Positions 8,301-14,300 of a stretch of 64,000 nt of DNA are shown here, one piece after another. Position numbers and translations under genes: made by a program. The DNA is from Oryzias latipes (Eukaryota; Chordata; Actinopteri; Beloniformes; Adrianichthyidae). Under the pieces are notes generated by a model. The model was not told where the DNA came from. It worked only from the letters and a program-made list of their open reading frames with translations, and did no database searches. The stretch spans positions 7,131,026-7,195,025 of the forward strand of contig NC_019869.2 of NCBI RefSeq assembly GCF_002234675.1, written 5' to 3'. Within the stretch, counting starts at the first letter, position 1. Each line of letters starts with the position of its first letter.

Positions 8301-11300
8301 ATACCAGCAGATATCCGCCACCAGAAAGTGGTGCAAATCTGGTGGATCTCGCTCCAGGCTTTTCCTTTCACAGCTCTATTTTGAAATATGAACGACCTGG
8401 TGTCGTATAATTCCAGTTGTACACAAACAGCAATTATTAAATTCTCCTTCATGATCAATTTTCAAACGGTTGGAACTTCCGTAAATTAAAAAGGGACGTC
8501 TTCCATACTTCACTACCAAATCTGAGTCCCTGATTGGTCAAAGTTCAACCTGGTTTAAGTTTCAACATGCATGGATCGGCTGTGCGTTTTGTTCGTGAAG
8601 CCCAAAAACGGACGCAGAAACGCAAGAGTTTTCAACGCGGAAGCCTGAAACACATGTTTACATAGACTTTTCATTAGAAGTGGTTGTTTGAATGCGGGTT
8701 GCAGAGGGCGATGTGAATGTAGCATTACACTAAAATATCATTGAGTGGAACGTGTTATAAAGTCACCTGTCCAGCCCTCTGAAGGGTCCCAAAGTGAACA
8801 TCAGGGATGAACAGAACTGGCTGCGCCTCTAGGTCGGTCATGGTCTTGAAATAGGTGGTGTCGGACTTTTTGGGAACGGTTATGACTCCAACATTGCTGT
8901 CTTTGCCTGGAAATGATTATTACTTTCATTAATATAAGAAACAGATGGAGTCATGCCTGTATGCTGAGATTTGATGATTGTGACGTTAAAATAAATGCAG
9001 ATCCAACCTTTTGACTTTTTGCGGAACAATTTTCTCTCTTCATCTCTTATTTTTCTCTCTGCTCCCTGAGAGGGAAAATGTAGAAAAGGACAAACAAATA
9101 AATAAACGATTAAAAGTTTAAAACGATTCATGAAATTATCAGCAAAATTCTGTGTTTTCTGTGCATCTCCAGCCTGGTCTGAAGATGAGTGCAGGCAGAC
9201 CACTAGAAGTCTGTCATGTCTGTACAGTTTTACTGAAAACATCATAACTGATGACAGACTTTACAATACAAGCCATAAAGAGTCATTTTTTTTGGTTGTT
9301 TCTACCCATTATTGTGTTATTGTGTACATTTTCTTTTAATTTCATACTTAAAAAGATAGAAAAATCAACGACAACTTTGTGGAATCTAAAAAACACTTTT
9401 TAGATCTCTTACTGTGTTTCTATATCTCAAACCTAAATGTTTTTACTGCCAATAATTCAAATGTGTTGCCATAACTGTCATTATTTTGTGTTATTTATGG
9501 TTTCAAAAAACTAACAAAAACACCTGATGTTGATCAGATGTTTTTTTTTAGAATTTAAATTCTTTTTCACAGCTTTATGAGCAGGAAGCAACGTTTCTGT
9601 AAATTTTCAGAGTAAAGTTCATTTTGAAAATAAGTTGAAACCAGAAACAGTTTGACAAACTTGAAAATGGATCTTTACGCCACATCATCAGGATGTCTGG
9701 CCTGGGCCTGTGTGACGTAAGGCTTAATGGAAAGTATCTGTGTTGAAGATATCTAGCCACAGGGGTTGCAATCTAGCCACAGGGGTTGCAAGCCAGTAAC
9801 TTCTGTGCCGGTCCCAAGCCCGGATAAATAGAGAGGGTTGCGTCAGGAAGGGCATCCGGCGTAAAAATTGCCAAAATAACCATGCGAATCATCCACAACA
9901 CTTTAGACATACCGGATCGGTCGAGGCCCGGGTTAACAACGACCGCCACCGATGCTGTTAACCTACAGGGTGTCGGTGGAAATTTGACTACTGTTGGTGG
10001 AAGAAAGAGGGGAGGCAGAAGGGTCCGTGGCCAGAGAGAGAAGGGAAAAGGCAGGAACATAGGTTTGAGAATAGGGACTCTTAACGTTGGCACAATGACA
10101 GGGAAAGGCAGAGAGCTGGCAGACATGATGGAGAGAAGGAAGGTAGATGTACTGTGTGTGCAGGAGACAAGGTGGAAGGGCAGCAAGGCACGTAGTATTG
10201 GAGGAGGATATAAACTGTTCTATCATGGTGTTGATAGGAAGAGAAACGGGGTAGGAGTGATTCTGAAGGGGGAGTTTGTAAACAGTGTTCTAGAGGTGAA
10301 AAGAGTCTCAGACAGGATGATGAGCCTAAAGTTAGAAATTGAAGGGGTGATGGTGAATGTAGTCAGTGGGTATGCGCCACAGGTTGGCTGTGAGTTAGAA
10401 GTGAAGGAGAGATTCTGGAGTGAGTTGGATGAGGTCATAGAGAGTTTTCCCAGAGGAGAGAGAGTTGTTATTGGAGCAGACTTTAATGGGCATGTTGGTG
10501 AGGGCAACAGAGGTGATGAGGAGGTGATGGGCAGGTTTGGTGTGAAGGAAAGGAATCTGGAGGGACAGATGGTGGTGGACTTTGCGAAGAGGATGGAAAT
10601 GGCTGTAGTCAACACTTACTTCCAGAAGAGAGAGGAACATAGAGTGACATACAGAAGTGGAGGTAGGAGTACTCAGGTGGACTACATCCTATGTAGACGA
10701 GGTCATTTGAGAGAGGTTAATGACTGCAAAGTGGTGGTAGGAGAGAGTGTAGCCAGACAGCACCGCATGGTGGTGTGTAAGATGACTCTGGAGGTCAGGA
10801 AGAAGAAGAGAGGGAAAACAGAAAAGAAGACCAAGTGGTGGAAGCTACAGAATGAAGAAACTTGTGAGGAATTTAGGCAGAAGTTGAGGCAGGTCCTGGG
10901 TGGTCAGGATGAGCTTCCAGATGACTGGGAAACTACAGCAGAGATTATCAGGGAAACAGGTAGGAAGGTGCTAGGTGTGTCATCTGGAAAGAGGAAAGAC
11001 GGTAAAGAGACTTGGTGGTGGAATGAGGAAGTACAGGAATGCGTCCAGAGGAAGAGGTTGGCTAAAAGGAAGTGGGATGTAGAAAGGACTGAGGAAGGTA
11101 GACAGGAGTACAAGGAAGCGCAGCGTAGAGTGAAAAGAGAGGTGGCAAAGGCCAAACAGAAAGCTTACGATGAGCTATATGACAGGTTAGACACAAAGGA
11201 AGGAGAGAAGGACTTGTACAGGCTAGCCAGACAGAGAGACAGAGATGGGAAGGACGTGCAACAGATAAGGGTGATTAAGGACAGAGATGGAAAGGTGCTA

Positions 11301-14300
11301 ACAACCCAAGAGAGTGTACAGAAAAGATGGAAGGAGTATTTTGAGGAGCTGATGAACGAGGAAAATGACAGGGAAAGAAGGGAGGAAGATGTGGTTGTTG
11401 TGGAGCAGGAAGTAGCAGAGATTGGAAAGGATGAGGTTAGGAAGGCTCTGAAAAGGATGAAGAGCGGAAAGGCCGTTGGTCCTGATGACGTACCTGTGGA
11501 GGTATGGAAGTGCCTAGGAGAGACAGCAGTGGAATTTCTAACAAGGTTGTTCAATAGGATTTTAGAGAGTGAGAAGATGCCTGAGGAATGGAGGAGAAGC
11601 GTTCTGGTCCCAATCTTTAAGAACAAGGGTGACACGCAGAACTGCAGCAACTATAGAGGAATAAAGTTGATGAGCCACACAATGAAGCTGTGGGAAAGAG
11701 TAGTGGAAGCCAGGCTTAGGAAGAAGGTGGAGATTTGTGAGCAGCAGTATGGTTTCATGCCCCGTAAGAGCACCACTGATCCCATTTTTGCTTTGAGAAT
11801 GTTGATGGAAAAGTACAGAGAAGGTCAGAAGGAGCTGCATTGTGTGTTCGTAGATTTAGAGAAGGCGTATGACAGGGTGCCGAGGGAGGAGCTGTGGTAC
11901 TGTATGAGGTCGTCTGGAGTGGCAGAAAAGTATGTCAGAGTAGTTCAGGACATGTATGAGAGAAGTATGACGGTGGTGAGATGTGCTGTAGGTCAGACAG
12001 AGGAGTTCAAGGTGGAGGTGGGACTACACCAAGGATCAGCTTTGAGTCCTTTTTTGTTTGCTATGCTGATGGACAGGCTGACAGATGAGGTAAGACAGGA
12101 ATCTCCCTGGACAATGATGTTTGCGGATGACATTGTAATTTGCAGTGAGAGTAGAGAGCAGGTGGAGGAACAGCTAGAGAGGTGGAGGTTTGCTCTGGAA
12201 AGAAGAGGTATGAAGGTCAGTCGTAGTAAGACAGAATACATGTGTCTGAACGAGAGGGATCAAGGTAGAAGCGTTAGGTTACAGGGGGCTGAGGTGAAGA
12301 AGGTGCAGGAGTTTAAGTACTTGGGGTCAACAGTTCAGTGTGATGGGGAGTGTGGAAAAGAGGTGAAGAGGCGAGTGCAGGCAGGTTGGAGCGGTTGGAG
12401 GAAAGTGTCAGGAGTGTTGTGTGACAGAAGAGTGCCAGCAAGACTCAAAGGAAAGGTGTACAAGACAGTGGTGAGACCAGCTCTGCTCTATGGGTTAGAG
12501 ACGGTAGCAGTGAGACAGAGACAAGAGGCTGAGATGGAGGTAGCGGAGATGAAGATGTTGAGGTTCTCCTTAGGAGTGACCAGGTTAGACAGGATAAGGA
12601 ACGAGTACATCAGAGGGACGGCTCATGTTGCCTGTGTCAGCGACAAAGTCAGAGAAGCCAGACTGAGATGGTTTGGACATGTTCAGAGGAGGGATAGTGG
12701 ATATATTGGTAGAAGGATGTTGGAGATGGAGCTGCCTGGCAGGAGGGCAAGAGGACGGCCAAAGAGGAGATACATGGATGTCTTAACAGAGGACATGAAG
12801 TTGGCTAATGTTAGGGTAGAAGATGTCCATGATAGAGTGAGGTGGAAAAGGATGATTCGCTGTGGCGACCCCTGATGGGAAAAGCCGAAAGAGAAAGAAG
12901 ATCTGTGTTGAAGATAAACTCTTTACAGGTGACAAAAGTGTCTGACGTGAAAGTGATAGTTTAACAATAGGTTGTTAAAATTCAGGATTTTTGGAATCTC
13001 TTTGAACAATTAAAGATGGAGGCCTCCCATCCTGGAAAACTGACTTTTATTTTATTTTTCTGTCTGCTTCCGATCCCACATTGGTCCTTCTTCAGCTCTC
13101 CTACAGTGAGTTATGTGGCCATAAACTACAAACATGTGGATTTCAGTCTTTCTCGTCTCTGGAGAGAAATGATGTTTTCTGGACTCTTTTGCAGGAACCT
13201 TTCATCACCTTGTCACAGAAGACCTTGATCTGCGAGTAGGCCCTATGCAGGGGCTTGTTGCTGCGGTTGTTGTAACTGTAGGTGTCGATCTGGATCATGA
13301 GCGGGAGACCCTTGACCCCTTTCTGAGAGGAGAAGTCTGTGCTCAGACAGTTGACTGTGATGAAGATCTTCAAAAGAGAGAAAAAGGAAGGAAAAAAAGG
13401 TTTAAAATGAGTCTTTACATGCAGCTGCATTTTAAGTCTAAGGATTATGTTCAGGTTCACTTTAGTAAAAACCTGAATCTTGTTAAAGTTTAAAAATGTT
13501 TCATTGATTACAGAAGTGAAACTGGTATTTGATATAAAACTAATACTTCCCTAGAAATTCCCCAGAAATCTTTGCAAAACAATAAAAAAACAATGTGCAT
13601 TAATGCTCATATAGACAACAATGTTCTCTGTAAAATGCTTATATTTATTAGGCTTTTACTTTGGCAAATAGGTGACATCATATCTGCTGTTTCAGAAAAA
13701 GAAAAGTAGTGAGCCTGGTGTCCAGATTACATTCAAATCCAGGGCTTGGATTGTCCCGCACTAAATGGTCTTTTAGGAGTTAGGGAGGGAATCTGGATGT
13801 AAAAAAAACAGTTTTGGAGCCTCACAGTGTCACACCCTGATCAGATAATCAACTCAAACACCGGCAAAGGTTTCCTAAGCCCTTAAACAGCCACTCAGTC
13901 TGAGTCAGAAAGCCACACTGTTACAGGAGAGAGTCTTCACAGCCTTCACACGGACGGACATCATGCTAACTGTTCACAGAGTGCTGTTTCCTGGGGAGGG
14001 GGGGTAAAGGTGGCTGATTCTAGGGGCCCAGACTGAGGGGGGGGGGGGGGGGGGGCACATAGGTCCCTAAAGATGATGAAATGATAAAACAGACTAATTG
14101 CAGTAAGTCATTAACCAATATATAATTAAAAATATTTTATTTTCAATGTCATGGTAACAATATTATTTTGTCTTGGAAACATGAAGTTCTGCAGCCCCCA
14201 CCCCAATTTTTATTTTTAAATGTGTCCGAATTTCTACCTTAATCCCTAACAACTAGTCCGGCACTATGTAGTGCCCTGGATTATGAAAGCAAGTCAGACA

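Follow-up and report, generated by a model that had tools for sequence, protein, structure and literature searches.

A young full-length LINE in a grhl2 intron of Oryzias latipes, with an RNA 5' end probably trimmed by a twister ribozyme and leader arrays probably left by reverse-transcriptase restarts

Little is understood of how long interspersed nuclear elements (LINEs) finish their 5' ends; several related systems involve self-cleaving ribozymes. Published work on R2 describes ribozyme-made 5' ends, junction variation that is new at each insertion, and tandem duplications (PMC3774820, PMC3414825); the R2 reverse transcriptase jumps in vivo from the ribozyme-made 5' end to other RNAs (PMC3414825) and adds untemplated nucleotides ahead of jumping (PMC8857657). 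Truncated, competent twister ribozymes are mentioned, as unpublished work in preparation, to be conserved at the 5' ends of RTE elements (PMC7761336), and a twister without the P1 stem is reported to cleave at almost the wild-type rate (PMC5408937). Here we analyze a full-length LINE inserted in an intron of grhl2 in Oryzias latipes, within a 64-kb stretch that we call the window (64,000 nucleotides of contig NC_019869.2, positions 7,131,026 to 7,195,025 of the forward strand, assembly GCF_002234675.1). We consider it likely that this is a young element whose RNA 5' end is trimmed by a twister in its own leader, and that the arrays of leader units seen at some copies come from restarts of the reverse transcriptase on that leader. 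Twisters at RTE 5' ends are already known, in print as unpublished data; what is added here is the comparison of a predicted cut with insertion ends, a prediction open to testing in many independent insertions, and the description of tandem leaders.

At the 5' end of the element, the Rfam twister model RF03160 scores 55.6 bits, with an E-value of 4.8e-11 when 3.4 kb are scanned and of 9e-10 for the whole window. The match contains the conserved core nucleotides, a P2 helix in which 9772-9775 pair with 9829-9832, and the pairing of the internal hairpin, and on this model the element RNA is predicted to cleave itself before A9770. That position was derived from Rfam and set as a test ahead of seeing the other copies. 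A whole-genome search (734 Mb, 25 contigs) yielded 2971 first-look candidates. Forty copies were scored, and most of them begin at query position 18-20, equivalent to window positions 9769-9771. Because this first query contained the extra leader unit of the window copy, the search was repeated with bases 10400-12900 only, and the 40 best copies were taken as a body-ranked sample. Thirty-four of them reach the 5' region, and in 30 of the 34 the leader begins exactly AATCTAGCC at A1, the equivalent of A9770, with a single leader in 26 copies and with A1 plus extra units in 4. Among the 30 best copies, 26 are flanked by exact target-site duplications (TSDs) of 14-22 bp; 17 of the 26 TSDs lie directly against AATCTAGCC at A1 or overlap it by no more than its first two A. 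The predicted ribozyme cut coincides with the genomic 5' ends. The first-pass annotation of this DNA had been right about an intact young LINE, but the ribozyme, the leader duplication, and the 20-bp tandem unit described below were absent from it.

The ribozyme match is a property of the family. Ten of ten further genomic copies were positive for RF03160 (45.5-56.5 bits), and the conserved twister core GCCGGTCCCAAGCCCGGATAAATAGAGAGGG is exact in all 40 first-search copies and in 29 of 31 other copies. A relative outside the genome, L001 (NZ_JASJAV010000043.1), scores 63.9 bits. This 6.1-kb contig is filed under a Breoghania metagenome-assembled genome (MAG) and holds two animal-type RTE LINEs, one of them 64% and 79% identical to the window protein in its two segments and the other about 29% identical; it is probably animal (host) contamination of the MAG. 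The P2 strands read TCTA/TAGA in the window and CTCA/TGAG in L001, with three pairs altered on both sides and pairing kept, and the loop AAGCCA of the leader hairpin (9790-9795) is identical in L001, though its stem has diverged while staying paired.

Several observations weigh against this interpretation of the 5' ends. The gathering score of RF03160 (67.2) is unmet in every copy scanned (45.5-63.9 bits). Six of the 40 body-ranked copies are truncated inside the body, and 4 of the 34 that reach the 5' region deviate from the common start, L012 beginning one base late, L025 and L057 falling a few bases short, and L029 carrying an 11-nt duplication. Filler or short host-like sequence stands ahead of A1 in several copies. 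Furthermore, if A1 were the transcription start of an internal promoter, identical genomic 5' ends would also result, as defined starts likewise give constant ends, and the twister-like fold would be a relic or a coincidence, with which a score under the gathering score would agree. We regard such a promoter as unlikely, since the Rfam-derived cut, made before the other copies were seen, matches their 5' ends to the nucleotide, P2 is altered with compensation in L001, and the core is conserved there at a protein identity of 64-79%. The shortfall from the gathering score lies in P1, which is weak or missing. The 5' strand of P1 is upstream of the cut and so is made of whatever DNA the element landed beside; the strands GUUG/UUGC pair only partially, and in single-unit copies the P1 strand is host DNA. 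A role for the extra leader unit as a restorer of P1 was considered and rejected, as GUUG/UUGC pairs poorly and a P1-less twister has been reported active.

The second feature of the 5' end is a perfect 20-bp tandem unit (9751-9770 and 9771-9790). Most body-ranked copies lack the extra unit, arrays being found in 5 of 34 with L029 counted. With up to 2 mismatches allowed, the genome contains 43 matches to a 20-bp joint pattern, against 0 for a reversed-pattern control, and the letter ahead of AATC at these matches is C in 35, T in 7, and A in 1. Altogether 37 array loci were parsed, of which 9 belong to the first 40 copies and 28 are additional; 26 have two leader starts, 3 have three, 4 have four, and 3 have five, while the remaining locus, L029, contains an internal repeat of 11 nt. 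In 30 of 36 arrays the outermost unit starts with AATC, the search pattern having left its first bases free, and the middle units do so in 19 of 20 cases. The 49 joints between complete starts read GTTGC (30), GTTGT (7), GTTG (5), GTTGCA (2), and GTTGCG, GTCG, and GTTGA (once each), the last 2 being short units (9 and 14 nt). Nineteen joints are therefore not plain, 17 with a base changed, missing, or added plus the 2 short units, whereas the element bodies diverge by 0.23% on average. A rough binomial calculation (2.7e-22 for at least 19 odd joints in 49) is not relied on, since its rate of 1.5% per joint is an assumption and the sample is biased towards 20-nt joints. Among loci L061-L088 there are two leader subfamilies, GTAACTTC and GTTGCCTC, which differ in the 3' arm of the hairpin; arrays occur in both.

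The mechanism that we favor would start with the twister in the element's own leader, which would cut the RNA just before A9770 whatever host DNA lies upstream; because cutting would not depend on that DNA, no conserved upstream flank would be needed, and the RNA would begin AAUCUAGCC. Cleavage would precede copying, and the RNA would be copied at the nick by target-primed reverse transcription to leave a TSD of 14-22 bp. In most insertions, copying would stop once the RNA end made by the ribozyme is reached. In the minority of cases, the enzyme would run off this end, sometimes with an extra nucleotide added, the terminal AA would re-anneal to the AA at the start of the leader hairpin loop, and the first ~20 nt would be copied again, once or several times, so that arrays would originate by template jumping. 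The landing site of the 20-nt jumps would be the 5' edge of the hairpin loop. One such extra turn would account for the additional 18-nt unit of the window copy. It is also conceivable, though we think it rather doubtful, that leader re-copying is built into 5'-end completion, with the AA left by the ribozyme matching the AA of the conserved loop, the reverse transcriptase re-priming repeatedly on the RNA it is copying, to a maximum of five units, and the arrays forming a record of restarts on one RNA.

Instead of returning to the same RNA, the enzyme might jump to a second RNA, a 20-nt piece whose end lies in the hairpin loop. R2 is known to jump end to end with a nucleotide added (PMC8857657), and the joints described here cluster at 19-21 nt. 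However, one element-specific variant is present in all four units of L087 and another in both units of L088, which suggests that the same RNA, or the RNA of the same source copy, was re-read; a separate piece thus seems possible but improbable. In L006 and L082, a variant is found in the innermost unit only, which later mutation would explain.

Shared variants such as those of L087 and L088 would also be expected if the extra 20-bp units had arisen after insertion, by slippage of DNA replication or by unequal exchange. L066 (20,19,20,19), L078 (19,20,19), and L061 (20,19) are orderly mixes of 20- and 19-nt units; the alternation in L066 and L078 could come from the doubling of 39-bp blocks, and the unit order in all three might reflect later doubling at the DNA level, a point that counts against reverse-transcriptase restarts, as does the bias of the loci from the joint-pattern search towards 20-nt joints. 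Slippage should nevertheless copy units exactly, yet the 19 odd joints stand against closely similar bodies, and in the 30 arrays noted above the outermost unit starts exactly at A1, beside host DNA. We find this explanation about as unlikely as the internal promoter. A third possibility is that arrays are inherited from multi-unit source elements through read-through of uncut transcripts, which would carry the array along. The ribozyme on the innermost unit would, however, remove the other units, and unit number and joints differ between arrays. On a tree of 40 copies, which has no strongly supported branch and to that extent also tempers our account, arrays are scattered (7 changes against a shuffled mean of 7.3), so they are not a subfamily, and among 30 copies the tandem-tandem distance (9.7) exceeds the tandem-other distance (8.1). 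Inheritance is accordingly the explanation to which we give least credence, and restarts on the leader remain our preferred account of the arrays.

The element itself (Table 1) is 3149 bp long, with a single open reading frame (ORF) that encodes an apurinic/apyrimidinic (AP)-like endonuclease and a reverse transcriptase, a very short 3' tail of 25 nt, and a 16-bp TSD. We take it, as the first-pass annotation did, to belong to the RTE clade, whose elements are about 3.2 kb long. Pfam places Exo_endo_phos at residues 66-277 (E = 4.3e-8) and RVT_1 at residues 584-818 (E = 2.2e-37) of the ORF protein, and the best PDB sequence match is human L1 ORF2p (8uw3, 8sxt; E = 7.8e-27). At the position of the endonuclease D-H pair, as taken from the L1/APE fold, the window copy reads Q-H (RQH). 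The possibility that this Q disables the endonuclease was weighed and rejected: L001 has it too (SQH), which makes it a family trait and not decay of the window copy. The earlier description of a 997-codon frame free of stops and frameshifts, of identical 16-bp flanking duplications, and of retained endonuclease and reverse transcriptase motifs holds in each respect, with the motifs found in the translation, matching Pfam domains, and no catalytic residue changed relative to the family. No second copy of the element was found within the 64-kb window.

Table 1. Positions of the element, its 5' leader features, and the host intron in the window
Feature	Positions	Strand	Details
grhl2 intron holding the insertion	9066..13208	-	GT...AG; boundaries placed from splice signals
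5' TSD, ATCTGTGTTGAAGATA	9736..9751	.	16/16 identical to 12901-12916; last A possibly the element's
Extra 18-nt leader unit, equal to the 20-nt leader AATCTAGCCACAGGGGTTGC minus its first one or two A	9752..9769	+	Upstream of the predicted cut
Twister ribozyme (match), type P1, weak P1	9765..9841	+	Rfam RF03160; predicted cut C9769^A9770
Leader hairpin, 12-bp stem 9778-9789 / 9796-9807, loop AAGCCA 9790-9795	9778..9807	+	Fold -15.3 kcal/mol
Single ORF, AP-like endonuclease and reverse transcriptase	9882..12875	+	997 amino acids, ATG to TGA, zero internal stops
Very short 3' tail, 25 nt, ending GAAAGAGAAAGAAG	12876..12900	+	
3' TSD	12901..12916	.	16/16 identical to 9736-9751

All 40 scored copies, out of the 2971 candidates, are nearly full length and 99-100% identical, and the 997-codon frame is intact in 39 of them, the exception being L036, which is cut at codon 192. 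Among the 30 best copies, the mean pairwise difference is 7.2 per ~3107 bases (0.23%), two copies do not differ at all, and the window copy lies 9 substitutions from its nearest relatives. Against the majority of these copies it has 8 substitutions (3 synonymous, 5 nonsynonymous) and a single-base gap at 9862, within a run of A in the 5' leader; a frameshift was considered here and rejected, as the gap lies before the ORF. A634P, within the RVT_1 span, is private to the window copy among these 30. Across the 30 copies, the frame holds 81 variant alleles, and 33 of them are synonymous (41%, versus 24% expected for random changes), an excess that fits descent through working copies. The CpG observed/expected ratio is 0.38 in the element and 0.56 in its flanks, which is of no help in dating the copy. 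The insertion is recent because its TSD is identical and near-identical copies exist elsewhere, and sequence comparison indicates that the window copy is young and the family recently active; an intact frame, a TSD, and near-identical copies, which are among the marks of an actively retrotransposing element, are present. The first-pass annotation had likewise called the insertion recent and proposed counting near-identical copies genome-wide, and the 40 of 40 scored copies at 99% identity or above bear it out; it had named fixation across related species with many synonymous differences from other copies as a counterindication, and 3 of the 8 substitutions are synonymous. Its suggestion of current mobility is fair for the family, given the intact frames and the synonymous excess, but weaker for the window copy, with its 9 substitutions and private A634P.

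Flanking exons joined as protein match human GRHL2 (PDB 5mr7, E = 2.8e-30). Since these exons lie on the minus strand, the element lies on the plus strand, and splice signals place the intron around it, the insertion is intronic and antisense to grhl2, as had been annotated. Elsewhere in the window, an ORF at 62255-63196 presumably encodes a poly(A)-binding-protein-like sequence. Outside the genome, no relatives were found in viral contigs by protein search or with two DNA patterns. Protein searches of phage and plasmid records gave only remote reverse transcriptases and one record resembling a bacterial artificial chromosome (BAC), and in DNA searches this BAC-like record was the only plasmid match, while neither E. 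coli genomes nor phages gave any. L002 (NZ_CP104070.1, 14208-27860), deposited as an Alicyclobacillus plasmid, combines catA1 and IncFIA typing with an animal-type RTE reverse-transcriptase stretch (47.9% identity), and looks like a fosmid or BAC clone.

If our reading is right, the leader arrays would record the behavior of the reverse transcriptase at an RNA 5' end, and the family would be a specific case, open to experiment, of twister ribozymes with a function in an animal genome. Its copies can also serve directly as markers of recent LINE insertions in Oryzias latipes. No description of self-leader arrays was found in the collection of open-access papers searched.

Of the known systems, human L1 ORF2p shares the combination of endonuclease and reverse transcriptase, but its sequence similarity is remote, and to our knowledge L1 has a second ORF and no twister. 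The mini-twister without P1 (PMC5408937) is alike in cleaving when practically one nucleotide precedes the cut site, but is a laboratory construct with no mobile element. Closer are the RTE twisters of PMC7761336, which share the RTE-type single ORF, the location of the twister at the very 5' end, and a P1 that is missing or weak; that note gives no sequences, junctions, or species, whereas the present analysis compares the cut with the insertion 5' ends of individual copies and describes tandem leaders. R2 LINEs, with their hepatitis delta virus (HDV)-like ribozyme, resemble the present element in a ribozyme-defined 5' end, de novo junction variation, untemplated nucleotides, and jumps in vivo, and also in some tandem duplications of a length fitting the cleavage site (PMC3774820, PMC3414825). 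They differ in being site-specific and in using another ribozyme, and, as far as these accounts go, R2 duplications copy the 28S target or other RNAs, whereas those described here copy the element's own first 20 nt.

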